64,000 nucleotides of DNA from Gammaproteobacteria bacterium. Lineage in GTDB: Bacteria > Pseudomonadota > Gammaproteobacteria > Eutrophobiales > Eutrophobiaceae. The notes under the pieces were generated by a model. It saw only the letters and a list, made by a program, of their open reading frames with translations, was not told where the DNA came from and did no database searches. Shown in pieces: positions 43,481 to 56,761 of this stretch. Each line of letters starts with the position of its first letter. Position 1 is the stretch's first letter. The stretch spans positions 186,001 to 250,000 of the forward strand of contig WLWS01000001.1 of the NCBI GenBank assembly GCA_012103475.1. The letters run 5' to 3'. The position numbers were made by a program, and so were the translations under genes.

Positions 43481-44893
43481 TTATAGCAAAGTTTTTTGAG
43501 GATCGAGCGCGTCTTTCAACAGTCCTCCCAGTCTGGCCATTCCCTCAGGTAATTCCGAATTTACAAGAACATCATGATAATTGGATCTGGCATGAGTAAT
43601 ACCGTAACCTTTTTCCCTTACCTTTCCAATGATCTCATTGATACACCGCTCGACCTGTAGTTTTTCTTCTGCGTCAAACAGTATGTAATTTCGTTTAATC
43701 ATTGATCGCCAGCCTACAACAAATTCACTCAAATCATCGAAGCCATGTGTCTCCAATACTCCGGTAATTATCCTGGTCAGCTGCAGTGCTTCCTTCCCAT
43801 CTGGTGGGCAGGCTATACCGAGATCAAATCGATAGCGACCTCGCCAGTGGTTCAAGTTATCGAAGCCATCTGCAGGTCTGCCACGCATAAGTCCTTCCCT
43901 GCTCATCCAGATCTGATCACCTTTTCGGTCATCATCTGTAAATAATCTGGCGCCCTCAATACTGCTCAGTGCTTCACTTACCATAGGCCACAATAATTCC
44001 ACATTGTCAGGCGTGTTATAGAGAGCAGCATAAAGATTCCATTCACCTAAACTCAAATCCGCTTTCAATTTATTCATATCCGGAGCCTGGGAGCCCGAAT
44101 AATCTTCACGCTTAATATAGGGAATGGCATCCAGCAATGGGTTACTGATCACAACGGAATTAGGCACAATAACGTTTATTTTCAGATCTCTGAGGATCTC
44201 GACCGCGGCAATAATATCACTCTGATTCGGCATACTCAGCATAAAGGGCTTATACGCTGGTGGCGCCGGCATCAACCATAATCCGATTTTAGTGATGATG
44301 CCGAGTGTCGACTGGGTGAATATCGGATCCACCCAGGGGCCGTAGCCCCATTTAAATAATTGCCAGATATTATTCCCCGGCAAGGCACCCATAGTAGTTC
44401 TTACCAGTTCACCATCTGCCAACATAACTTCCATACCACATTGCATCATCATATGATCGCCATATGGGGTATAGCCGAATTCGTGATTAGCTATGCTATC
44501 GGACACTGAATTCAACTGATTCCTGTCGCAATCGATCCACAGGCCGGTGTTATTACTTTCAAGATACTCATACAGCTGCTTGTATGTAACACCAGGTTCT
44601 ATAAGAGCATAAGCAGATCGAGTGTTCACTTCGAGAACCTGATTCAGATTCTTTAAATCGACAATAACAACGTTATCATATTGTTGATTTCCAGTTGGGT
44701 TCTGACCATGCACATGCAATGAGAAATTGCCTTTAGCTGCTTCTTTAAGAAGTTCTCTTAACTGATCAAGACTTTCCGGCGCGGTGACACCCAGAATATT
44801 TTCACCGTATTGGTTGCGATAATATCGCGACTCACCTGTTTCTCTGCTTATCACAGCCAATCTGGGCAAATTTTCGTCAGCTTTTTCGCTCAT
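43481..44893 (-). CDS. VAO/4-cresol dehydrogenase-like flavoprotein, second paralogue
   Basis: 470 residues, clearly paralogous to the 521-residue flavoprotein in the same operon. Shared blocks include YALIEPGVTYKQLYEYL, GYTPYGDHMMMQCGMEVMLADG, FTQSTLGIITKIGLWLMPAPP and a DALDPQKTLL end. The early FAD-binding loop is reduced (HVHGQNPTGNQ in place of the normal TGKNFAYGGPAP), so flavin binding may differ. Members oxidise para-alkylphenols and 4-hydroxybenzyl alcohols and pass electrons to a cytochrome c. It may be a second substrate-specific subunit or a non-catalytic partner. The start overlaps the VdcD-like gene by four bases. Confidence 0.85.
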   Translation of the reverse strand: MSEKADENLPRLAVISRETGESRYYRNQYGENILGVTAPESLDQLRELLKEAAKGNFSLHVHGQNPTGNQQYDNVVIVDLKNLNQVLEVNTRSAYALIEPGVTYKQLYEYLESNNTGLWIDCDRNQLNSVSDSIANHEFGYTPYGDHMMMQCGMEVMLADGELVRTTMGALPGNNIWQLFKWGYGPWVDPIFTQSTLGIITKIGLWLMPAPPAYKPFMLSMPNQSDIIAAVEILRDLKINVIVPNSVVISNPLLDAIPYIKREDYSGSQAPDMNKLKADLSLGEWNLYAALYNTPDNVELLWPMVSEALSSIEGARLFTDDDRKGDQIWMSREGLMRGRPADGFDNLNHWRGRYRFDLGIACPPDGKEALQLTRIITGVLETHGFDDLSEFVVGWRSMIKRNYILFDAEEKLQVERCINEIIGKVREKGYGITHARSNYHDVLVNSELPEGMARLGGLLKDALDPQKTLL

Positions 44894-45132
44894 TTGTTTT
44901 TATGCAGTTTCGCTGGTGGAATATTATGCGGATATTGATCCGGCTGATCCGGGTCTACTTGAAACCACTCGTCTCTTTTTTCATAGTCAATCGATTCAGT
45001 TGGTTCACTGTCACGCCAGGTAAAAGCGCAGCGCTGGCAATAAAACACCTTCCAGATAATTTCGCCTGCTTCCCTGCCTTCGTGCTCGAGCCGACAATGT
45101 TTTTCTTCAGCCTGACAACGTGGGCAGCTCAT
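44890..45132 (-). CDS. VdcD-like small subunit of hydroxyarylic acid decarboxylase
   Basis: 80 residues. A zinc-ribbon pattern (CPRC at 3-6 and CQRC at 32-35) followed by AFTWRDSEPTES matches the D subunit of vanillate/4-hydroxybenzoate decarboxylases (VdcD/ShdD), found only beside the UbiD-type C subunit. It overlaps the UbiD gene and the second VAO gene by four bases each, so the three are translationally coupled. Confidence 0.85.
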   Translation of the reverse strand: MSCPRCQAEEKHCRLEHEGREAGEIIWKVFYCQRCAFTWRDSEPTESIDYEKRDEWFQVDPDQPDQYPHNIPPAKLHKNK

Positions 45133-46613
45133 GATTTTTCCGCCCGTCTTTGCAATTCCTGAACCATTCGTGCCAGCTCATCGATTTCAGCTCCGGAAGG
45201 CGGCATGACTAATTTTGAGTCAGCGCCAACTGGATCCGGTGCCATAAAACTGGTTGCATCTATAATGAGACGATGCCCTTTGCCCGGGACTTCAGCAGCG
45301 GGATCAATTAGCACCAGAGGCATATTCGGTATCACGTGAATATCGCTTGCTCGAGTGCGCGTTGACAGGGCCCACATCACTTCGTTGAGATCAAAAGGAT
45401 CAACAAACTCATCAACCATGATAAGGTTTTTCAAATACATTAAACCGTGAGGAGTACTCAGCGCCCGTAAAGCTACCGACTTCGCAAAACCGGCAAAGCG
45501 ATTTTTCACGGAAATAATACCCGTCAATCCATGTTGATAAAGTGCGTTCACCGCTACCACTTCGGGAAAGCTCTCTTTCAACTGCGAATAGACAGGCGCG
45601 CAGGTATTCAGACCAATAAGCGTATCGTGTTCGGTCCATCCGCGACCAATATAAATGTTTTCAAAAATCGGATTATCACGGTGAGATATAGCCGTGATTT
45701 TGAAAAGCGGCACATGACGGACACCACTGTAACTACCCGGAAACTCGCCAAAAGGTCCTTCCAGTGTCCGCTTGTTATTGATCAATTCGGCTTCGATGAC
45801 TATTTCGGCACCGGCCTGAATATCAAGACCATTACCGGATGTGGTTAATTGAATCGGGCTGCCCATCATTTGCGAGGCATAGCCGTATTCGGATTCGTCG
45901 TAATTTATCGGAGTAGCAGCAAACATTGCCATAGCCGGATGGTTTCCGATCATCACCGCAATTTTTAATGGCAGATCTTCGGCTTCCGCCGCACGTATCA
46001 TGTGTGCCATATCATGCGAAGGAACGGACAGAAGACTGAACTGATCCGGTCCATGCACCTGGATTCTGTAGATACCAACGTTTTGTTTATCAAAATTCTC
46101 AGGATCGAGCGGATCGCGACTGACGATATTGGCTTTGCCAATATAGAAACCACCGTCCGATTCATTCACCCGGTAAAGTGGAATTACATCGTAAAGATTG
46201 ATATCAGATTCGATTCGGTTCTGGTTAACCGGAGCATCTTCAGCCTTAATCCTGTCGATAAGCGGTTTATCTGATCCCCAGCGACCAATCAGTTCGTAAA
46301 ATAATTCTTTAATACTGGTACCTTTGGGGTAGCCAAGTAATAGTGCAATATTGCTAAAACTGCCATGTACGCCAAACACCATTCTTCTGCCGGGGTAACC
46401 GCGAATGTTATCAAACATGATTGCCGGCGCGCCCATAGAATCCCGGCCAGAGGCCACCGCAATTTTACGAATGTCTGGTTCTGGCATAACCGCTTCCGGC
46501 CACTTGATAAACTGCCCATGCTCGGACAACAGGTCAAGGTAATCACGCAGACAGTGAATACGCTCTGCTACCGCTTTGGCTTGTGACGAGATGCTTTTAT
46601 TTTTTCCTGCCAT
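45129..46613 (-). CDS. UbiD-family non-oxidative aromatic acid decarboxylase (VdcC-like)
   Basis: 494 residues. UbiD blocks are visible: the prenyl-FMN/metal region IYRIQVHGPDQFS (R183) and KRTLEGPFGEFPGSYSG with Glu285 and Glu290. With the VdcD-like gene adjoining, the likely reaction is reversible decarboxylation of a hydroxybenzoate or vanillate to the phenol. It requires prenylated FMN from a UbiX-type enzyme, which is not encoded in the window. It starts six bases after the cytochrome c gene ends. Confidence 0.92.
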   Translation of the reverse strand: MAGKNKSISSQAKAVAERIHCLRDYLDLLSEHGQFIKWPEAVMPEPDIRKIAVASGRDSMGAPAIMFDNIRGYPGRRMVFGVHGSFSNIALLLGYPKGTSIKELFYELIGRWGSDKPLIDRIKAEDAPVNQNRIESDINLYDVIPLYRVNESDGGFYIGKANIVSRDPLDPENFDKQNVGIYRIQVHGPDQFSLLSVPSHDMAHMIRAAEAEDLPLKIAVMIGNHPAMAMFAATPINYDESEYGYASQMMGSPIQLTTSGNGLDIQAGAEIVIEAELINNKRTLEGPFGEFPGSYSGVRHVPLFKITAISHRDNPIFENIYIGRGWTEHDTLIGLNTCAPVYSQLKESFPEVVAVNALYQHGLTGIISVKNRFAGFAKSVALRALSTPHGLMYLKNLIMVDEFVDPFDLNEVMWALSTRTRASDIHVIPNMPLVLIDPAAEVPGKGHRLIIDATSFMAPDPVGADSKLVMPPSGAEIDELARMVQELQRRAEKS

Positions 46614-46619
46614 TTCCTA

Positions 46620-46997
46620 TCAGGTCTTTGTAATTGTACTGAGATATTCGGCCAGCGCTTCCAGCTCCGCGTCACTAATCTCTGAGGGTCGAAATGGTGG
46701 CATCAACAGTATTCCCTGGCGAACTATTGTTTTCACATACACGGCCTGTAAATCAGTGCGTTTGGTAAGTACGGCCTTATCTTCACCAAGACGTATTCCG
46801 AGTCTCATGGTTCCGGGATGTCCGGGACCTTCGGCATGGCAGGCTATGCAGTACTGCTTATACAGCTCTGCACCGTCAATTGGCACTTCCGCTTTTGCCA
46901 CAGCGACTGTGTCTACGCTCTGTTTCTCTGAACAAGACAAGAGTAAACAAGTTATAAAAGTAACCAGCAATGCTCGAAAAACACCTGCCTTCATCAT
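46620..46997 (-). CDS. Monoheme cytochrome c, electron acceptor of the VAO-type dehydrogenase
   Basis: 125 residues from the ATG at 46997, overlapping the TGA of the flavoprotein gene (ATGA). An upstream-extended frame inside the flavoprotein gene is not needed, because this start opens directly with a lipoprotein signal (lipobox LLLSC). The heme site is CIACH, and the axial methionine is probably in ILLMPPFRP. Position and size match PchC/eugenol-hydroxylase small subunits, which dock onto the flavoprotein. Confidence 0.9.
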   Translation of the reverse strand: MMKAGVFRALLVTFITCLLLSCSEKQSVDTVAVAKAEVPIDGAELYKQYCIACHAEGPGHPGTMRLGIRLGEDKAVLTKRTDLQAVYVKTIVRQGILLMPPFRPSEISDAELEALAEYLSTITKT

Positions 46998-48559
46998 TTC
47001 CGCAAGCTCTCTGGCCATATCCCCATTTTTCCCGGAGACAGAACCCCCTGCGGATCGAGTGCATCCTTGATTCGATGATGCATCTTCCACAATGCACCAT
47101 CGTTCCAGCTATAGGTGGCCGCAATCTGATCCATGAAATCCAGATGTGCGCGATACTCGCCATAGCCCAGCTTCGCATGATCTTCAATTAACTTACCAAA
47201 ACACTCATGTGCCCGTTGTCGCTCTTCATCGTCTGTGCGATCGAAAACCAGCATGAAAACATCCAGTAGCTCACGCCAGCCGACAAGAAATTCACCTATG
47301 TAATCGAAGCCGTATTCATGCGCACGATCGCGAATAGTGGTGAATTGTTTCATAGCATCTTCACCGGTTGCGGGTGAACGCGGGGCGAAATCAATATGTG
47401 CGCCGCTACCAACCCAGTTCATGATGCTGAATTCGGCCATATTCGGGATACCCTGCATCAGTTGAGCACGGTATTTCCATGCAGGATCGTCAGGCCGATC
47501 ACCTTCAAAATAAAACTTTGCACCGGGAATACTGCGAAAAGCTTCTTCCAGAATTTTCCAGTTATTGTCCATAAGTGGTGGCGGGCCATAGAGGGCGCCA
47601 TAGAAATTCCACATGCCAATATTCAAGTCCTCGGCAATTTTCTTCAAGGCGCTGGGTGGTGCCGGCCCTTTGCCCAGATAGTACTGTTTTTTGGTGACAC
47701 GTTGGCAGGCATCCCAGATTAAACCAACTGTGGTTGCCGCATTCGGGATGAGCATATTCAGTCTTAACGGAGCCACCACTTCGGTAATCTGATAAAGATC
47801 CTCTTCTTTAGGAAAGGTCACCATGTAAGGTCGATAACCCGGCGGTTCAGGCATTAACCAGATTCCGATTTTTGTGACAATGCCAAAATTCGATTGTGTA
47901 AACAGGCCTTCGACTGCCGGTCCGTGTCCGTATTTGTGTAAGTGTGCTGTGTTACTCGTCGAGGCCGAGCCCATACCGGTCTCCACCACGCTGCCATCTG
48001 CCAGCACAACCTGCATACCACAGTTCATAAGAAAGTGATCGCCATAGGGCGTATAACCTGCGCCATGTTCAGTCAGATTGCCGAGCACACTCCCCCATCC
48101 CGGTGCCGCCGGATCGATCCATAATTTACTCTTCTTCGCTTGCAGGTAGTTATACAGATCAAAATAACTGACACCCGGCTCAACAACTGCATAGCCATAC
48201 TTTTCATTGACCTCGATAATACGGTTCATGCGTTTTAAATCGAGCACCACGTACCCGGCTTTACGCGGGGCCGGGCCACCGTAAGCAAAATTCTTTCCGG
48301 TAGAGATAGTCCATAAAGGCACAACATATTTGCGAGCGACGGCAAGAATCTTTTGTATTTCTTCCACTGATTCCGGTGCAATTGCAGCGGAAGGCATGTG
48401 CAGCTCGTCCTTTGTCGTTGCATAGACATCGCGATAAGCACGCAACTCGTTGATATCGTCAGTGTAGACTCGATCCTGTCCCAGTATTTCCCGTAACTCC
48501 GCGACTGCGGATTCAAACTGTTCGAGAGTCAGTGACTCTGGTAACGCTTTATCACTCAT
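46994..48559 (-). CDS. 4-cresol dehydrogenase/VAO-type flavoprotein subunit
   Basis: 521 residues, matching PchF/eugenol hydroxylase in size. The PCMH FAD domain has WTISTGKNFAYGGPAPRKAG and GAGYTPYGDHFLMNCG; the cap domain has FTQSNFGIVTKIGIWLMP, and it closes with DPQGVLSPGKMGIW. Members hydroxylate the para-alkyl carbon of phenols through a quinone methide, then oxidise the alcohol to the aldehyde. With the UbiD/VdcD genes downstream, a 4-alkylphenol-type substrate is likely. No cleavable signal is seen, as in several relatives. It overlaps both neighbours by four bases. Confidence 0.9.
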   Translation of the reverse strand: MSDKALPESLTLEQFESAVAELREILGQDRVYTDDINELRAYRDVYATTKDELHMPSAAIAPESVEEIQKILAVARKYVVPLWTISTGKNFAYGGPAPRKAGYVVLDLKRMNRIIEVNEKYGYAVVEPGVSYFDLYNYLQAKKSKLWIDPAAPGWGSVLGNLTEHGAGYTPYGDHFLMNCGMQVVLADGSVVETGMGSASTSNTAHLHKYGHGPAVEGLFTQSNFGIVTKIGIWLMPEPPGYRPYMVTFPKEEDLYQITEVVAPLRLNMLIPNAATTVGLIWDACQRVTKKQYYLGKGPAPPSALKKIAEDLNIGMWNFYGALYGPPPLMDNNWKILEEAFRSIPGAKFYFEGDRPDDPAWKYRAQLMQGIPNMAEFSIMNWVGSGAHIDFAPRSPATGEDAMKQFTTIRDRAHEYGFDYIGEFLVGWRELLDVFMLVFDRTDDEERQRAHECFGKLIEDHAKLGYGEYRAHLDFMDQIAATYSWNDGALWKMHHRIKDALDPQGVLSPGKMGIWPESLRK

Positions 48560-49119
48560 GCCTGTCTGACTTTAAACAGCCAGGAAACTAGATGACCGGA
48601 ACTGTTAGCAGGAGCACTTCTTATTGATTCAATTTTCCCGCTTAGCATACTTTCGTCTGCATAATCGGATAAGGTGGGAATTTGACCGAGCACGCTTGTC
48701 CACGACTCATTTCCTGATAGTTGTGAGGATAAAGATTCCAGAATTTCTTTGTTTCCCCGCACACTGTGTGTGAGCGTATTTCTCTGATATTGATGGCTTC
48801 CGTGATAATGCAAGCGGTAAGCATTCTGTTGAGCATACTGCTCGATTAATACAAAGTTTGAATCTCGGCTCAGGCCAAAAACGAATTCATATTCTTTTTC
48901 TCGCAGGCTCTTATCAAGTTCCTGCAGGAGTAATGAGGGATCCGCTTCGATTGGTTTAACAGGAAGGCAGGATGCAAAAGCACTACTATCGCTACAGCCA
49001 TTCTCGCTTAGCACCAGCACTTTTTTTGAGCTATAGCCTGTACTTGATGCCACTGATGTGAGTAGCGGCAATCCGGAGACAGCGAACGCAGATAGCAGGA
49101 ATACTCTTCTACTCAGCAT
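48556..49119 (-). CDS. Unknown exported protein with Tat-like start
   Basis: 187 residues. The start LSRRVFLLSAFAVSGLPLL has twin arginines and a hydrophobic stretch, so Tat export is likely. The mature part has an early VLVLSENGCSDSSAFASCL with two cysteines nine residues apart, followed by an alpha/beta-like region. I know no family for it. It begins the VAO-UbiD operon and overlaps the flavoprotein gene by four bases, so it probably serves maturation, export or electron transfer of the dehydrogenase; this is inference. Confidence 0.65.
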   Translation of the reverse strand: MLSRRVFLLSAFAVSGLPLLTSVASSTGYSSKKVLVLSENGCSDSSAFASCLPVKPIEADPSLLLQELDKSLREKEYEFVFGLSRDSNFVLIEQYAQQNAYRLHYHGSHQYQRNTLTHSVRGNKEILESLSSQLSGNESWTSVLGQIPTLSDYADESMLSGKIESIRSAPANSSGHLVSWLFKVRQA

Positions 49120-49176
49120 TTCTCATCAATAAATAAAGTTCGGAGTTAGCAGTGACAAGCTAACAGATTCTTTTGT

Positions 49177-49920
49177 TCAATCAAGTCCTAGTTTTAAATG
49201 AGATCCATCACAATAGGGTTTGGTTTTCGAATACTTACAGCCGCATAGCGCAACATGTTGAAACTCCTTTAATTCAATCTCTATCGGTGTGCGCTTGGTA
49301 TCCTTATGTGAGCCATCGCAGAAGGGCTGGTTTTCTGATTTACCGCATGAACACCAGTAATATTTACCTGCATCCAGGTTGAGCAGGAAAGGTGTTTTCC
49401 GGTTGCCGCCAAGAAATTTGGACTTAACCCAACCGTCTCCATAGGGACTGACCATATTCAGTTTCAACTCCATGGTTTTGAAAAACCATTCCCCGTCAAT
49501 TTTCACGACTTCAACGTCATAGGTGCCGCCGATCCAGTGAGGTTCAGCTTCATCCGTATCAGGGTTCGGCACGGTTGCCGATTCCCATAAATACCAGAAG
49601 ACCTTGGCATATTCACCAGTCTCATCAAAATCGATTTGTGGTGAAATCATATAGTGCAATGACCACCAGATTTTCTCACCGGCTATTCCATGTAAACCAC
49701 GGGCCACTTTATCGCGACTGATGTATTTACCAAAACCTTTACACTCCCAGGTTCCATCTTCAGTAAACAATGGACCGATTTTTTCCGGATTATTACCTTC
49801 ATCACATCCACGTGCATAACTGACTATCAATCGCTCAATGGCTTCTACATCTTCCAGATGCGTCAGTTTTTGATTGATCCCCGTTAACAGTTGTTTTATT
49901 TCTTCGAACTCTTTACTCAT
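49177..49920 (-). CDS. SnoaL-like domain fused to two CDGSH iron-sulfur domains
   Basis: 247 residues. Residues 1-20 form a short helix. Residues 22-165 are a SnoaL_4/NTF2-like cone (AIERLIVSYARGCDEG, GTWECKGFG, WHIGGTYDVEVV-type strands). The C-terminus (residues 187-247) carries two complete CDGSH sites. The first has Cys190, Cys192, Cys201 and His205; the second has Cys226, Cys228, Cys237 and His241. Each should hold a redox-active [2Fe-2S] cluster. It lies 32 bases after the Rieske alpha gene, so a role in that oxygenase system as beta-like subunit plus electron carrier is attractive but unproven. Confidence 0.85.
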   Translation of the reverse strand: MSKEFEEIKQLLTGINQKLTHLEDVEAIERLIVSYARGCDEGNNPEKIGPLFTEDGTWECKGFGKYISRDKVARGLHGIAGEKIWWSLHYMISPQIDFDETGEYAKVFWYLWESATVPNPDTDEAEPHWIGGTYDVEVVKIDGEWFFKTMELKLNMVSPYGDGWVKSKFLGGNRKTPFLLNLDAGKYYWCSCGKSENQPFCDGSHKDTKRTPIEIELKEFQHVALCGCKYSKTKPYCDGSHLKLGLD

Positions 49921-49952
49921 AGCAGCACCCCGGTTAGTTAATACTTTGTCCT

Positions 49953-51149
49953 CTAAACTTTGTTCACGTATTCATCGACAAAATGATTGAAGTTTCTCAA
50001 CACCAGCTCCTCATCCTGGAAATGTAAGACTTCCTTCGCCCCGGATGCGATGACCGATTGCACTTTTTCATGAGTAAAGGAATCCTCTCTCAGAGCATCG
50101 CGCAGGCCAGCCTTGCCATATTCCAGTGCAAACAGTTCACCAGCGTTTTTTGCTTTCGGATAATAGAATCTGACCTCCCAAATACTCTCATCAACGCTTA
50201 GAGGCCAAATGTGATAGGTGAAAAAACTGCCCCTGAGCAAACCTATAAACATGTTCGGAAATACATGATAGAGATCAAAGGCACCATGCCAGACAAAGTC
50301 ATTTGCCGATTCATCCTTCTCATCTTCTATCGCAAAAGCATCAAAAGTACCTGTGCCAAACTTCATACTGACAGCTGCGCTTGGAGAAGGTTTATAATCG
50401 CGCGGTGCATGCGAGGAAACCAGACCATGCTTACCGTAGCACTTGACTGCCGCATGTCGGAATAATTCGCCGCTGTTGGTCGCCGATTTTGCCAATGTGT
50501 TTTTGTGAAGGTAAGGCAGGTGCCAGCCCTCCTGCTGTGCTTCCTGCAACAATTTCCAGTTTACCTTCTCTTTTATCTTGTAAAAATAGGTATAGGAAAG
50601 CTTGTCGAAAGGATAACCTTTCATGGCTTCATCAGCCGGTGAAAGGAACTCCGCCAGACTTTGCTCAGGCTCAGCCTGAAGGTTAATGAAGATAAATCCG
50701 GACCAGCTATCCAGAGATATCGGCGTCAATCCGTTTTCTTCTTTCTTCACATCAAAGAAACGATCTTTGTCGGTAATACTGACGAGTTTTCCCTCGGTAT
50801 CGTAACTCCAGGCATGGAAGCGGCAAACAAAAACGCCCGGACAGTGTCCACGCTCATCCCAGGCTACCGGATTCGCCCGGTGCGAACACATGTTATGAAA
50901 TGCACGTATCTGGCCGTCTTTGCCGCGCACAACTAAAACCGAAGTCTTGCATATTTCCAGTTCGCGAACGATGTAATCGCCGGGCTCAGGAATTTCCTCC
51001 TCTCTACCTATATTCAGCCAGCAATGTTTGAATATTTTTTCTCTTTCCTGTTCAAAAAATGTTTCGCTGTAATAGCGTTTCGTATCCAGAGGTTCCACTC
51101 CCAACTGCGGATGCTCGTGGGTGTAGCGAAACTCGTCTGACTGACTCAT
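49953..51149 (-). CDS. Rieske non-heme iron oxygenase, alpha subunit (first)
   Basis: 398 residues. The Rieske cluster ligands are Cys88-x-His90 and Cys109-x2-His112 (MCSHRANP, FVCRFHAWSYD). The mononuclear iron site appears in QEGWHLPYLHKN (His210, His215), with an acidic third ligand expected near the C-terminus. It hydroxylates or demethylates aromatic or related compounds and needs an external reductase, none of which is encoded here. It starts two bases after the EthD-type gene. Confidence 0.9.
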   Translation of the reverse strand: MSQSDEFRYTHEHPQLGVEPLDTKRYYSETFFEQEREKIFKHCWLNIGREEEIPEPGDYIVRELEICKTSVLVVRGKDGQIRAFHNMCSHRANPVAWDERGHCPGVFVCRFHAWSYDTEGKLVSITDKDRFFDVKKEENGLTPISLDSWSGFIFINLQAEPEQSLAEFLSPADEAMKGYPFDKLSYTYFYKIKEKVNWKLLQEAQQEGWHLPYLHKNTLAKSATNSGELFRHAAVKCYGKHGLVSSHAPRDYKPSPSAAVSMKFGTGTFDAFAIEDEKDESANDFVWHGAFDLYHVFPNMFIGLLRGSFFTYHIWPLSVDESIWEVRFYYPKAKNAGELFALEYGKAGLRDALREDSFTHEKVQSVIASGAKEVLHFQDEELVLRNFNHFVDEYVNKV

Positions 51150-51151
51150 CT

Positions 51152-51490
51152 TTAGTTGTGCTCTAGAGTTTGACTGAATTGAAACTCAACACGGCTATTA
51201 GTGTAATTCGGGATGTCGTCTGCGACAGGCTGACCATCTTCAGGAGTAGCAAATAATCGACGAAACCCGTCTATGCCGTCAGAGTTATTGAAAAATACCG
51301 AACAGATACAATGGTAAGGCATGTCCTCCTCGCCAACCATGCCACCTACACCTTTATCAACCTCGACTTTAACGACCTCGGCATAAGGTTTGATTGAACT
51401 CAGAGCCAGTGGCAGATGTACTTTAAAATAGTGATCAAAATCAAAGAAAGACTCTTCACTTTTCGGGTAAATAATCTTTGCGCAATACAT
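51152..51490 (-). CDS. EthD-domain protein
   Basis: 112 residues with an EthD/ABM dimeric ferredoxin-like fold: AKIIYPKSEESFFDFDHYFKVHLPL supplies, in part, the conserved Tyr/His-rich first helix. The end includes VEFQFSQ. Relatives occur in ethyl-tert-butyl-ether and aromatic catabolic operons with poorly known function. It lies between the unknown small gene and the first Rieske gene with short spacers. Confidence 0.8.
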   Translation of the reverse strand: MYCAKIIYPKSEESFFDFDHYFKVHLPLALSSIKPYAEVVKVEVDKGVGGMVGEEDMPYHCICSVFFNNSDGIDGFRRLFATPEDGQPVADDIPNYTNSRVEFQFSQTLEHN

Positions 51491-51511
51491 TTCTATTTCC
51501 TTGGACAGAGT

Positions 51512-51835
51512 TCAGGGAACAAGGTGATGCAGAGGCTCGAAGCGTTCAACTGACACACCGAAAGGAATTTCAGGCTGTTCAAACATTTCAACAGACATAG
51601 CTGCCTCGACATAACTCAGAACTAATGAGAGTAGGTTCTGCTCCGCAGCGGGCATGTTATCCAGTTGGTAGCCATTCAGGTGCTCAAGTATATTCTCCAG
51701 CGAAGCTAACATGGCATCGTAGAAAGTACGTATGTCATCCATACTTGAGTTATCACACTTATTCCTGCGCGCCTGTTCGTTCTCGAGAATCCACTCAGAG
51801 TAGATTTTCAATTTATTAAATTTGGCAGGTAACAT
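51512..51835 (-). CDS. Unknown small protein between Rieske oxygenase genes
   Basis: 107 residues from the ATG at 51835, which has AAGGGGAG just upstream; the longer frame starts with TTG inside the preceding gene. The protein looks all-helical (FNKLKIYSEWILENEQ, then LENILEHLNG and LSYVEAAMSVEMF), ending with aromatic and proline residues. I recognise no family. Tight placement between the second Rieske gene and the EthD gene suggests an accessory role. Confidence 0.65.
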   Translation of the reverse strand: MLPAKFNKLKIYSEWILENEQARRNKCDNSSMDDIRTFYDAMLASLENILEHLNGYQLDNMPAAEQNLLSLVLSYVEAAMSVEMFEQPEIPFGVSVERFEPLHHLVP

Positions 51836-51848
51836 CAGCTCCCCTTCA

Positions 51849-53096
51849 TCAGGCAACAGTACGTTTCTTCTCTGAATTTTTGCTCAGGCTATCAGCATAG
51901 GTTTTATAACGTTTGATTAACCATTGATTAAACTGTGGCAGTGTTTTTTCTTTCGGTGCGTAGCGCCCGCGATTAGCGAAGCGAGACTTCAGCCCCCGGT
52001 GCACCAGTTTATTGGCAACAACATCCTGATCATTATAAATAGATAAACCGTCGACAACTTTCGGCAGAGTCTCATAAAAATCCGGCAAAGCCATAGTCGA
52101 TTTGGGATAAAGAAAACCAACTCGTAGAGTGATGTTGTTAGCACCCTGAGGAAGAATTATGTAATGCAACAAACCATCAGGAACGGCCCCGAAGAAAAGA
52201 TTCGGCAGAACGCAGGCAAACATAACGCGTTTGCGTTCGTTTTCGCTCAGGGTTTCGATGGTCGGATACAGACTCTTGTAGGATTCAGTAAAATTGCCAT
52301 CAAGCTCGAGAAAACCCGTCGGATGAAACACTGCTCCATCGTCGGCCTCATCCCACTCTGCAAAAGTTGCCAGTTTTGAGGGTGCGAAATCATGCACACC
52401 TTTATGTAGATAACGCGTATGGTAAGGCTCAATCGCATTTTCATGCATATACTTCCAGTTCCAGGGATTATCGGCCCAGTCAATCGTCGGTACTGCTCCC
52501 ATTTCACCAAGGTGATGATTGGCTACTTCGGCACTCAGTCTTTTTAGACGTGGTGCCAGCGCTTTCGCCTCACCATCAAGATTAATGAAAATAAAGCCAT
52601 TCCAGATTTCGGTTCGAATAACAGGCAGACAATGATCTTTACGTAGTTCGTCAAGCGAGGCATGAGCTTCCATTTCCGGTGCGCTGCAAAGTTTGCCCTG
52701 GAGATCAAAGGTCCAGGCATGCATAGGACAGGCAAAAGTATTTTTAGTGTTGCCACGCTCCTCTCCTATCACCGTTCCGCGATGCGGGCAAGCCGCTGAC
52801 ATCACACGAATCTGATCTTCCTTATCGCGTAAAACAAGCAGTGGATCGTCGTTAATGGTAATCGACACATAATCCCCTTTTTCTGGAATAAGACCGGTGT
52901 GACCGACACATATCCAGTCGCGATCCCAGATAGCGCGCTTCTCAAATTCAAACCAGTCTTCTGAGGTATACACTTCAGGTGGCATGGTAATGGCGTCTTT
53001 AACATCCCCGGTGGATGCATCAAGTTGCGAAAGTATATTTAAAATAGAATCCGATAAGGGCATCGGTTCCAAAGGTGCTTTGACGAACTCAGACAT
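51849..53096 (-). CDS. Rieske non-heme iron oxygenase, alpha subunit (second)
   Basis: 415 residues from the ATG at 53096 (MSEFVKAP), preceded by GGGAGG nine bases upstream; a longer frame begins in the promoter region. Rieske ligands are Cys103-x-His105 and Cys123-x2-His126 (ACPHRG, FACPMHAWTF). The mononuclear iron histidines lie in AIEPYHTRYLHKG. It differs greatly from the first alpha subunit, so the two probably act on different substrates or form a heteromer. It is divergent from the MarR-like regulator. Confidence 0.9.
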   Translation of the reverse strand: MSEFVKAPLEPMPLSDSILNILSQLDASTGDVKDAITMPPEVYTSEDWFEFEKRAIWDRDWICVGHTGLIPEKGDYVSITINDDPLLVLRDKEDQIRVMSAACPHRGTVIGEERGNTKNTFACPMHAWTFDLQGKLCSAPEMEAHASLDELRKDHCLPVIRTEIWNGFIFINLDGEAKALAPRLKRLSAEVANHHLGEMGAVPTIDWADNPWNWKYMHENAIEPYHTRYLHKGVHDFAPSKLATFAEWDEADDGAVFHPTGFLELDGNFTESYKSLYPTIETLSENERKRVMFACVLPNLFFGAVPDGLLHYIILPQGANNITLRVGFLYPKSTMALPDFYETLPKVVDGLSIYNDQDVVANKLVHRGLKSRFANRGRYAPKEKTLPQFNQWLIKRYKTYADSLSKNSEKKRTVA

Positions 53097-53188
53097 GTTA
53101 ACCATCCTCCCGCTTCGCTCTGCTAATGTATATGTGTATATTATCCAATACTTTATACCATACAATACAGAATCTATAGACCAAAGAT

Positions 53189-53295: not shown

Positions 53296-53850
53296 ATGAC
53301 TGCTGAGAAAACCAATAATGTTAAAGATTCATTCCTTTCCACGACCGAGGAAGAACTGCTGGTCACAGATTTTGAGTTCAGTTTTCTGTGTCTTTCCGAA
53401 GCCTTCCGCCGCTGGATTGTGTCCTGTTCACAGCAGGTTGGCGGAAATGAAATGGGTATGCTTGATGCTCTGGTTTTACATGTGGTTCGTTTTAGAGATA
53501 CCGCGAAAAGCATATCCGAAATAAGCCACTTCCTCAGTCGTGAAGACCCCTCTACAGTTCAATATTCGCTGCGTAAACTCGAATCAGCGGGATGTGTTGA
53601 AAAAGTGGCCGGACTGGCAAAGCGCGAAACTCGTTATCAGGTTACAGAGAAAGGTCAGGAGCAAACCGAACGCTATGCGGAAATTCGACGGGACATTCTC
53701 ATTCGTATTCTCAATAGTTTTACCCGGGAGCCGGGTTACATGGAGGAATTGATGGATAAAATTACTGTAATGGCTGGCGTGTATGATCAGGCAGCATTAC
53801 GTGCGAATCATGGAGCGAGAAAGAAAAATCAGAACGCAGAAGAAAAATAG
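53296..53850 (+). CDS. MarR-like winged-helix transcriptional regulator
   Basis: 184 residues. After a helical N-terminus, SISEISHFLSREDPSTVQYSLRKLESAGCVEKV is in part the helix-turn-helix and recognition helix, followed by a wing (AKRETRYQVTEKG). A C-terminal helix pair probably dimerises. It is divergently transcribed from the Rieske cluster with two palindromes between, so local control of that operon is the best guess. The ribosome binding site is weak. Confidence 0.88.
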   Translation: MTAEKTNNVKDSFLSTTEEELLVTDFEFSFLCLSEAFRRWIVSCSQQVGGNEMGMLDALVLHVVRFRDTAKSISEISHFLSREDPSTVQYSLRKLESAGCVEKVAGLAKRETRYQVTEKGQEQTERYAEIRRDILIRILNSFTREPGYMEELMDKITVMAGVYDQAALRANHGARKKNQNAEEK

Positions 53851-53868: not shown

Positions 53869-54333
53869 CTATAAAATGACAAAGATTTCTGCCTGGATTA
53901 GCCAGCCATCTGCTGACTTTGTCCATTTGGCATAATAACTTCCTTGCAGCTCAAGCATTTTTCCGGCTTCCGTCCAGGTACCTTTCCAGGTACCTGTTTC
54001 AGCGGCACTTGAAGCCGACAGATTAATCTCAATAGTTAGCGGTGTACGAACATAGACAGCATCGGGATACTTACTCGCGATTCTGGCCATCATTTCACGC
54101 TGGTCATCATGTCCGCTCAATTGCAGGTTGGTAGAGGTGACCACATGATAGTCAGGCCTTAAAGTGGTAACTAATAATTCTGCGTCCTTGTTCAACAAAG
54201 CCTGATTTGATACATCCCTGGCACGACGAATCTCGGATTCATCTATCGAAATCGTTTCCGCCGGGACCATCGAAGAGAAAATAGTGAGGACACAAAAAAA
54301 AGCGAGTGCTCCCAATTTAAGAAACCTGCTCAT
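53869..54333 (-). CDS. Exported NTF2/DUF4440-like protein
   Basis: 154 residues with a cleavable signal peptide (ending VPAET). The mature chain has the DUF4440 pattern: a first helix with ALLNKDAELLVTTLRPDYHVV, a strand TGTWKGTWTEAGK, and the final GSYYAKWTKSADGWLIQAE. Probably a periplasmic small-molecule-binding cone protein of unknown role. It directly abuts the GFA-family gene upstream on the same strand. Confidence 0.8.
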   Translation of the reverse strand: MSRFLKLGALAFFCVLTIFSSMVPAETISIDESEIRRARDVSNQALLNKDAELLVTTLRPDYHVVTSTNLQLSGHDDQREMMARIASKYPDAVYVRTPLTIEINLSASSAAETGTWKGTWTEAGKMLELQGSYYAKWTKSADGWLIQAEIFVIL

Positions 54334-54765
54334 TCAATCACTCGATGGATCATATTGTGGCCTTGTATCGGGGCTGCGTAATTCATGCTGAGGAAGATTA
54401 TCCGTTATTTCGAACCATGGCGCTTTGTCGCTGACGTAGATATGAGACTCAGGACGCTTACCTATATCACCATCAGTAGAACCCAGAGTGATACAGCGAA
54501 TATCCTCGCCATCAAAAGCGGCCAGAGGTGATCCGCAACGACTACAGAAACTACGATATGTTTCGGGTGAAGATTCGTATTTCGTAACCAGATCTTCCCC
54601 CATCAGCCAGCGGAATTTCGCCTGTTTAACCGCAAGATAGGTGCCATAAGCCACGCCGGAGACTTTTCTGCAATTTGGACAATGACAATTGGTTACCGGA
54701 TAAAACTCAGCATCAGATAATTCATACTTTACCGACTGACAAAGACAGCTTCCCTTGATAGTCAT
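54334..54765 (-). CDS. GFA (glutathione-dependent formaldehyde-activating)-family protein
   Basis: 143 residues. Zinc-binding cysteines follow the family layout: GSCLCQSVKY, then NCHCPNCRK, then SFCSRCGSPL. Members of DUF636/GFA range from S-hydroxymethylglutathione synthase to CENP-V-like proteins; the specific reaction is unknown. It lies 12 bases after the racemase-like gene. Confidence 0.88.
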   Translation of the reverse strand: MTIKGSCLCQSVKYELSDAEFYPVTNCHCPNCRKVSGVAYGTYLAVKQAKFRWLMGEDLVTKYESSPETYRSFCSRCGSPLAAFDGEDIRCITLGSTDGDIGKRPESHIYVSDKAPWFEITDNLPQHELRSPDTRPQYDPSSD

Positions 54766-54777
54766 GTTTCACCCTCC

Positions 54778-55551
54778 TCAGGATAGTTTCGGGTTAGTCA
54801 AAAATTCATCAAGTACATCTCGGGGTGGATGGAAAAAGTCTGAGGTCCGGCTGACTTCAAGACCGAACTTCTGTTTCATTTCGATCGCCATCTCACACAT
54901 TCTCAGACTGATTGGCAAACCATTTACTATCGGTGCATCACCTACGCGTTGATTTTCCATGCGCGAGAGCAAGAGCATTGGAATGCCACCTGCCGGGATC
55001 AACACATCAACACCGGCTTCCACTAATGGCAGTGCCTGCGCTTCAAATTGTCGTATCACCTCATTAAACCTTTCTTCATCATCAAATGCAGCAAGTATTT
55101 CGCCGGGGTTGAACTGCATCGCGTACACATCCTGTACCCGATCCTGTAAAGCGTACTTTTGAATTTGATGTTTATGAAAAGGAATAAAACGCGGATTCAT
55201 AGTGATGATCCCGATTCTCTGGCCATACTGACATGCATACAACATTGAGGCTTCACCGAGCGAAATTACCGGTATAGAGGCCGAAGCCCGGGCTTCGTAA
55301 AGACCTGAATCCTGAAAATGTCCTATTAAAAAGCCGTCGTAATTTTCATCAGACGCTTTTATGGCGTTGGCGATCGCCTCGCGGCCACAACGCCATTCAC
55401 TGATTGCATGTGCATAGGAATCAGGAGGAGTCACTTCCTTGAAAACTATTTCCGTTCCTTCACTCGCATTTGCATTAATAAATTTATCCAGCTCGCGTAA
55501 ATAGCTGGGTGCAGATTCCCTGTCGGCGAAACTCTGATACCAGATGCGCAT
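54778..55551 (-). CDS. Asp/Glu/hydantoin racemase-superfamily protein lacking both catalytic cysteines
   Basis: 257 residues. The fold signatures remain (YDGFLIGHFQDSGLYEAR and VEAGVDVLIPAGGIPM). However, the first catalytic Cys of hydantoin racemases (GCF-D-P) is replaced by His78 and the second (GC-G) by Ala187. Proton-shuttling racemisation or maleate-isomerase chemistry through Cys is therefore not possible. It may be a lyase, a decarboxylase of another type, or a binding protein. It lies 24 bases after the DJ-1/PfpI gene. Confidence 0.8.
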   Translation of the reverse strand: MRIWYQSFADRESAPSYLRELDKFINANASEGTEIVFKEVTPPDSYAHAISEWRCGREAIANAIKASDENYDGFLIGHFQDSGLYEARASASIPVISLGEASMLYACQYGQRIGIITMNPRFIPFHKHQIQKYALQDRVQDVYAMQFNPGEILAAFDDEERFNEVIRQFEAQALPLVEAGVDVLIPAGGIPMLLLSRMENQRVGDAPIVNGLPISLRMCEMAIEMKQKFGLEVSRTSDFFHPPRDVLDEFLTNPKLS

Positions 55552-55575: not shown

Positions 55576-56211
55576 TCAGGCCGATAGATGTGCGTACTTT
55601 TGCTGCAATGAGTCAATGATATGTTGTGGTGCCTTTGCCGGTGAACCCGAATCAAAAGGTGGTTGCGGATCGTACTCTATTATCAACTGAATCTCCTGAG
55701 CAATATCATCACCGTATTCTGCAGCGGCAAGCGTCAATGCCATATCGATTCCCGATGACACGCCGGCTGCAGTTATCACTTTGCCTTCACGTACCACTCT
55801 TTGTAAAGTTGGTGTTGCACCGAAGTCTTTTAAGGCCTCATGGAACATCCAGTGAGTTGTTGCGGTCAGACCATCTAGGACTCCTGCCGCACCTAGTATC
55901 AAGGCACCGGTACACACCGAGGTAGACCATCTTGATGTCTCATGGGCATTCTTCACCCAGGCCTGAATTTCCTTGTCCCCGGCAGCAGCTGATACATCAG
56001 GTCCACCAGGCATCAAAAAAATATCAGGCGATGGCATATCTGCGAGCGCTGTATCCGCGTGCAGCCCGGGCACACCGCTATGCGTGGTAATTACACCCGG
56101 CGTCTTCGCTACAAAATTTACTTTCGCATCTGGCATTGATGCCAGCACTTCGTAGGGACCAATTGCATCAAGTGCCGTCACGCCATCGTATAATAAGATT
56201 GCTATGTTCAT
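55576..56211 (-). CDS. DJ-1/PfpI-family protein, isonitrile hydratase-like
   Basis: 211 residues. The nucleophile Cys100 sits in the elbow STSVCTGALIL, as in cyclohexyl-isocyanide hydratase (Cys101). The N-terminal DGVTALDAIGPYEVL has the conserved acidic residue, and MPGGPDVSAA precedes it. The family includes isonitrile hydratases and glyoxalase-like enzymes. No signal peptide. The partner genes give no clear substrate. Confidence 0.87.
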   Translation of the reverse strand: MNIAILLYDGVTALDAIGPYEVLASMPDAKVNFVAKTPGVITTHSGVPGLHADTALADMPSPDIFLMPGGPDVSAAAGDKEIQAWVKNAHETSRWSTSVCTGALILGAAGVLDGLTATTHWMFHEALKDFGATPTLQRVVREGKVITAAGVSSGIDMALTLAAAEYGDDIAQEIQLIIEYDPQPPFDSGSPAKAPQHIIDSLQQKYAHLSA

Positions 56212-56404: not shown

Positions 56405-56761
56405 TTACAAAGACATTTCCAGAATACGTGCATATTCTTCACTGGGGTTTGCATTAGTTCCCCCTTCCGGATTGATACTGACATTTACTGAATCGAAATA
56501 ATCATACCAGCCAGACGCCTGAATATTTTTGTCCAGCTCATGAATCTGCTCGGCATTAGTCATCGCAAATATTCCAACATAACCTTCTGCTGGTGCTTTT
56601 GGTAGACTACGATCAATCTTACTCCAGCCCAGAGTCATGACCCCATGACGACGAGCTTCATTGACTGCTTCATCCAGAGAATGAAGATACTGTTTGCGCT
56701 CGTCTTCCGAAAGTGCAACCCACTTATCGCTCGGTTCCCACAAAATGATCAAAGTTTGCAT
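56405..56761 (-). CDS. Conserved hypothetical protein, YCII/DUF6616-like
   Basis: 118 residues. LIILWEPSDKWVALSEDERKQYL, in part, with GVMTLGWSKIDRSLPKAP and YVGIFAMTNAEQIHELDK suggests a small ferredoxin-like alpha/beta fold of the dimeric YCII kind. No catalytic residue can be named. It stands alone, with about 190 bases before the DJ-1 gene in which I see no gene. Confidence 0.6.
   Translation of the reverse strand: MQTLIILWEPSDKWVALSEDERKQYLHSLDEAVNEARRHGVMTLGWSKIDRSLPKAPAEGYVGIFAMTNAEQIHELDKNIQASGWYDYFDSVNVSINPEGGTNANPSEEYARILEMSL

Follow-up and report, generated by a model that had tools for sequence, protein, structure and literature searches.

We found that a racemase-fold protein encoded in a 64,000-nucleotide stretch of gammaproteobacterial DNA (the window, meaning the whole stretch analysed) lacks both catalytic cysteines (Cys) of its fold and belongs to a clade, the His clade, in which the first of them is fixed as His, neighbouring residues are invariant and occurrence is associated with iad genes for indole-3-acetate breakdown. 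We estimate a probability of about 0.5 that the protein is a functional member of this clade in which the two-Cys centre has been rebuilt around His78, and which would act as a cofactor-free one-base enzyme and, in most of the carriers tested, as an accessory to the iad pathway. No account of the His clade, or of His-for-Cys members of this fold, was found in the literature searched, whose reach left out most subscription journals.

Fold and catalytic positions

The reading frame starts with an ATG at 55551 and ends with a stop at 54778-54780 on the minus strand, encoding 257 aa (Table 1). It scored 72.2 bits with PF01177 (Asp_Glu_race), for which the cut-off is 31, and matched no other Pfam family, and searches of NCBIfam and PHROGs returned zero models and zero matches, respectively. 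Among solved structures, the best sequence matches by phmmer were Klebsiella allantoin racemase 3qvk (E 2e-12) and 3qvj (E 6e-12), followed by Pseudomonas AllR 5lfd. An AlphaFold2 model generated from 17 related sequences had a mean pLDDT of 87.6 and a pTM of 0.87, with a poorly determined loop at residues 48-51. Foldseek ranked allantoin racemases at the top for this model, and VIA-align identified 3qvk as the closest solved fold (Z 24.7, 239 aligned residues, rmsd 2.9), the model having the pseudo-symmetric two-domain architecture of the PF01177 superfamily. The whole fold is common to allantoin and hydantoin racemases (KpAllR 3qvj/3qvk, PfAllR 5lfd, PH 2eq5; Z 21.6-24.7, 18-20% identity over the structural alignment) and is also found in OpaE (9qbx, Z 20.9), which like NozR is an atypical Asp/Glu racemase-family enzyme of a natural-product pathway, in arylmalonate decarboxylase (AMDase; 3dg9, 3ixl and 3dtv, Z 15.8-16.7, with 3ixl at 16.6) and in maleate isomerase (4fq7, Z 16.5; 2xed, Z 15.8). 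The structure matches include a maleate isomerase C194S entry with succinylcysteine.

Table 1 Coordinates of the racemase-fold gene, its two catalytic-site codons and neighbouring genes in the window.
Feature	Position	Strand	Details
DUF6616 protein, first gene of conserved cassette	56405..56761	-	PF20321 94.2 bits; in L020, 72% identical
DJ-1/PfpI family protein, isonitrile-hydratase-like, upstream in same tight gene run	55576..56211	-	PF01965 90.3 bits; in L020, 83% identical
Racemase-fold ORF, His-for-Cys clade	54778..55551	-	257 aa; PF01177, AlphaFold2 model, allantoin racemase fold
Codon of His78, first catalytic Cys position	55318..55320	-	Coordinate computed from ORF start 55551
Codon of Ala187, at or adjoining second catalytic Cys position	54991..54993	-	Aligners differ by one residue
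GFA-family protein, next downstream, 12 bases between	54334..54765	-	PF04828 82.3 bits; in L020, 72% identical
DUF4440/SnoaL-like protein, directly downstream of GFA	53869..54333	-	PF14534 38.7 bits
Winged-helix MarR-like regulator, divergent	53296..53850	+	PF13463 51.3 bits

The first catalytic position aligned consistently. His78 lies opposite the first Cys in the phmmer alignment to 3qvj (GHFQDSGL against ACFGDPGL), and a profile-profile alignment against five relatives with both Cys (hhalign) agreed. At the second site, phmmer placed Ala187 opposite the Cys (IPAGGI against LGCGGM of 3qvj), and the AMDase motif ILLSCGGL, as printed in the available text of PMC4996985, fits VLIPAGGI without a gap. 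By hhalign and MAFFT, in contrast, Ala187 is shifted by one residue to face the Gly preceding the second Cys, and in hhalign the Cys itself faces a gap. The initial annotation had proposed a racemase fold with both Cys replaced, by His78 and Ala187. Our results confirm the fold and the loss of both Cys, while the exact match between residue 187 and the second Cys appears soft, as it depends on the aligner; the second Cys is most safely described as absent, by substitution with Ala or Gly or by a one-residue deletion, whichever alignment is used. In the AlphaFold2 model, two predicted strands terminate at residues 76 and 186, placing His78 and Ala187 just past them, which fits the two catalytic positions.

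Maleate isomerase uses two catalytic Cys, whereas the window protein is Cys-free at both sites. Compared with the allantoin and hydantoin racemases, it keeps the motif VIACFGDPGL as LIGHFQDSGL but has His78 in place of Cys at site 1 and Ala or Gly at 187 followed by Gly188, or a one-residue deletion, at site 2. Racemases of the Asp/Glu fold shuttle a proton between two Cys, and OpaE retains the catalytic Cys dyad, according to the available text of PMC12661438; the window protein does not. AMDase, which acts on aryl acids without a cofactor, also has a one-sided active centre. As described in the available text of PMC4996985, it performs stereospecific protonation with a single Cys, Cys188, and has Gly74 followed by the dioxyanion-hole residues Thr75-Ser76 (LMGTSLSF). 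In the window protein the sole proton donor of AMDase is missing, and by motif alignment His78-Phe79-Gln80 stands where AMDase has Gly74-Thr75-Ser76.

Conservation and phylogeny of the His clade

A scan of 84,980 species genomes yielded 17 related loci at 29-77% identity, and a plasmid scan yielded 55 records with any match to the racemase-fold protein. Among 397 other genomes sampled from the phylum, eight had a match at E 1e-40, six with the His and two (G465, G669) without it. The 17-row alignment omits the partial L035 and loci beyond the 17 of the genome scan; the tree contains 57 rows from 67 proteins, leaving out identical rows, L001, L002, L062 and L035 (match <150 residues). The 33 His-bearing rows of this tree all fall into a single group (support 100/98); some rows sit on long branches, and such joins may be false.

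Within the His clade, residue 78 was His in 33 of 33 rows, and position 187 was Ala in 23, Gly in 10 and Cys in none. Gln6, Ser7, Glu52, Arg54, Phe79, Gln80, Glu100, Gln129, Arg138, Gly188 and Arg235 were likewise invariant, and position 81 was Asp (30 rows) or Glu (3 rows). Since the records span Alpha-, Beta- and Gammaproteobacteria and Actinomycetota, an isolated mutation, which close homologues with Cys at the same positions would have indicated, or a sequencing artefact is effectively ruled out. The gene differs from its congeneric copy (L020) by a dN of 0.176 with saturated dS, and looks to be under purifying selection in this comparison.

The sister group of the His clade comprises six rows with Cys, Ser or Thr at site 1 and Ala or Gly at site 2 (support 89/76 alone and 100/100 joined with the His clade). 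L019 and L048 are the closest relatives to have Cys at site 1; they fall outside the His clade, and the second Cys is missing from them too. Most simply, the second Cys would have been lost first, with His appearing at site 1 afterwards. The window copy and its congener pair beside an alphaproteobacterial sequence (support 100/100), a placement that fits acquisition from Alphaproteobacteria. In a comparison with 58 relatives, a close copy was present only in the window's genome and this congener (77%), and one other genome in the class sample, G244, has a His-clade member (41%).

Other Cys-poor groups were also detected. A second Cys-free group, of nine rows from the taxonomic family of the window (L003-L008, L010, and L009 and L013 of the window's own genome, G000, which thus has two copies), has Thr (NTVSDSGL) at the first site and Ser close to the second (LGSTTM), and plasmid-borne L046 and L050 (Klebsiella, Cupriavidus) have Ala at both catalytic positions. 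Loss of Cys is therefore not unique to the His clade; what is particular to it is the fixed His.

Gene neighbourhoods and iad-like loci

In the window, the gene forms a tight run with the DJ-1, GFA and DUF4440 genes, with the DUF6616 gene upstream. The congener locus L020 keeps DUF6616, DJ-1, racemase and GFA in the same order, and the DUF4440/SnoaL-like gene was not found in this cassette among the matches listed. The DJ-1 protein (55576-56211) is closest to isonitrile hydratase InhA (6ni5, 190.5 bits), and the divergent MarR-like protein is a possible regulator of the run. Two Rieske alpha subunits, FAD oxidases, UbiD, a nitroreductase and further catabolic genes occupy the wider window, where positions 43481-53165 make up a catabolic island with two FAD-binding oxidases, a UbiD decarboxylase, a SnoaL-CDGSH fusion and the two Rieske alphas. 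No ordinary hydantoin-utilization operon was present in the annotated window neighbourhood. The sole relative that adjoins an N-carbamoyl-D-amino-acid hydrolase gene (L045) keeps both Cys.

The His clade is linked to iad-like loci, a link that is new here and was not found in the literature searched. The gene order and roles of iadC-J, which convert indole-3-acetate to anthranilate in Variovorax, are given in the available text of PMC12633357, and relatives of the enzymes IadC-IadJ neighbour many His-clade orthologues. In Sulfitobacter sp. THAF37, the orthologue (53% identity) comes immediately after a run of genes for a reductase, Rieske alpha and beta subunits, an AMP-ligase, a thiolase, an SDR, a cyclase and a further SDR, which agrees with iadCDEFGHIJ in order and roles as published there (PMC12633357). 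Identities in this run were checked for three genes: the Rieske alpha (556.8 bits to Variovorax paradoxus IadD 9O71), the reductase (242.6 bits to 7ylr, labelled Ferredoxin) and the cyclase (366.8 bits to isatin hydrolase A). Similar settings occur in Sagittula, Pukyongiella, Agrobacterium, L035 and five phylum-sample genomes, and the clade gene lies in or beside iad-type genes in L035, L037, L038, L040, L042, G497, G584, G600, G648 and G774. Orthologues in such settings were seen in roseobacters, rhizobia and other Alphaproteobacteria. Across 27 loci compared, five of which (L028-L032) are near-identical, nearby genes included an iadF-type or related acyl-CoA ligase in 16, a TRAP permease in 8, a thiolase in 7, and an iadI cyclase and Ohr/OsmC in 6 each. 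In this comparison, iadC-iadJ names denote similarity to the Sulfitobacter locus; neighbouring ORFs were taken from six frames without gene calling and, as GC-rich loci contain false ORFs, only those supported by similarity were used. The company of His-clade genes is often iad-like, rather than that of purine or hydantoin use seen with allantoin and hydantoin racemases.

Where the clade gene stands alone, iad genes are usually found elsewhere in the same genome. We searched for IadD in ten clade genomes, corresponding to 10 of the 17 scan loci (L020, L025, L029-L032 and L036 were left out, the window's genome is not among the ten, and L035 has adjacent iad genes), and for IadI and IadH in six of these ten plus G000, G001, G002 and G524. 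Eight of the ten held IadD at ≥52% or IadI at ≥56% (seven with IadD at 52-67% and one more with IadI at 62%), G784 and G785 being the two without either at those levels. Runs of iad genes were recovered in four of the ten (L102, L104, L105, L106), complete from C to J in three; the L106 run has no listed iadC. Within the phylum sample, five of the six carriers among 397 genomes, three carriers being of one genus, held IadI at 64-65% adjoining the racemase gene, while IadI occurred at E 1e-70 in 24 of 398 genomes. Using all 24, co-occurrence of the His clade and IadI was supported by genome (hypergeometric P = 3e-6) and by genus (P = 1e-3); a 60% IadI cut-off gave 9e-9 and 9e-5, but was set after seeing the data, making the former figures fairer. 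IadD alone gave only 0.07 by genus. Besides the window's genome, three carriers have no close IadI (G524 and G785 unmatched, G784 at 39%), and the iad-type genomes G701, G706 and G761 gave no His-clade match at E 1e-40.

The nine-gene iad minimum of Variovorax includes no racemase-fold gene, nor is a racemase-fold enzyme named for the pathway, in the available text of PMC12633357. Given this, and the lack of a His-clade match in G701, G706 and G761, the racemase-fold gene would be an accessory at most. The link would give the His clade a concrete place in the degradation of auxin by bacteria of soils and the sea.

The window copy itself does not lie in an iad locus, the two Rieske alphas of the window being only 27-32% identical, and not along their full length. 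In the window's genome, IadI was found only at 32% and the IadH match covered only 127 residues, so by similarity the genome appears to carry only part of an iad-like pathway. The IadD query had 19 matches across this genome. One contig (C3:276000-295900, L057) encodes a Rieske oxygenase resembling IadD (475 bits to 9O71 of V. paradoxus), along with genes of the E, F, thiolase, OB-fold and J-like types and with H and I not nearby; this cluster may represent a variant route for aryl- or indole-acetate. Pairing of the window copy with it was not supported, as G006, G016, G027 and G033 have 74-76%-identical oxygenases and no close His-clade copy. These partial matches, and the relatives' oxygenases unaccompanied by a His-clade copy, leave the window copy assignable to no named pathway, and we infer that the window's genus recruited the gene into another aromatic-catabolism island.

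Candidate activity and alternatives

The initial annotation considered the protein unlikely to be a racemase and possibly to have a separate activity. Our results support this, in that the fixed His, the invariant motif residues and gene company pointing to catabolism of aryl- or indole-acetate rather than to racemization of hydantoins or amino acids make a two-Cys racemase unlikely; a separate activity is what these patterns would suggest. With His on only one face and Ala or Gly opposite, the active site would have no acid or base at site 2 and, by analogy with two-Cys racemases and the one-Cys AMDase, would suit a one-base reaction. As the predicted base, His78 would take a proton from, or donate one to, the enolate or enol form of a carboxylic acid of the aryl or oxindole type, resulting in isomerization, tautomerization or stereospecific decarboxylation/protonation and not in free two-way racemization. 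The invariant Glu52 and Arg54, beside the flexible 48-51 loop, could bind the carboxylate. Because the nine-gene minimum lacks such an enzyme, it would perform an accessory step, rescue a wrong isomer or act on a related compound. Tentatively, and short of even odds, the clade may constitute a new enzyme family in bacterial auxin/oxindole catabolism, with His as the single acid/base of a racemase fold catalysing a step outside the iad scheme, such as enol/keto isomerization or stereospecific decarboxylation of an oxindole- or aryl-oxo-acid. The His clade would provide a one-base, His-for-Cys form, occurring in nature, of a fold used in engineering for chiral acids.

The closest solved fold is that of allantoin racemase, which inverts a carbon adjoining a lactam, and His78 could accordingly be one base of an epimerase, partnered by water or another residue such as Glu52 or Gln129, that inverts an oxindole or dioxindole stereocentre. 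Some neighbourhoods agree with this, namely L021 (10853-15587), where hydantoinase A/B genes and an ICL/PEP-mutase-type gene are close to the His-clade gene, and L022, with an ICL-type gene and related ORFs. We nonetheless consider epimerization unlikely, as site 2 is Ala or Gly in 33 of 33 rows with no replacement acid or base there, and the mechanism of OpaE and KpAllR is a two-base 1,1-proton transfer in the available text of PMC12661438. More unlikely is a hydrolase or lyase in which His78, together with Asp81, Glu52 or Glu100, opens a lactam, lactone or beta-keto acid by way of activated water or a bound metal. Although His78, Glu52 and Glu100 are invariant, position 81 is acidic throughout the clade, and hydrolases and thiolases are often among the neighbours, PF01177 is the only Pfam match and no precedent within the fold was found in the literature searched. 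Still more doubtful is a binding or regulatory protein that retained the fold after losing its Cys: the absence of both classic catalytic residues would be explained, but an inactive enzyme should accumulate changes at its active site, whereas the new residue at site 1 is His in every row, many polar motif residues are invariant and the genes lie in catabolic loci. An active one-base enzyme built around His78 thus remains our preferred reading.

Annotated records with His-clade members are mostly named aspartate/glutamate racemase, a name that the active site does not support. In roseobacter and Shinella regions (L037, L038, L041), a second, different gene of the Asp/Glu racemase family lies beside FAH-family and cupin genes.
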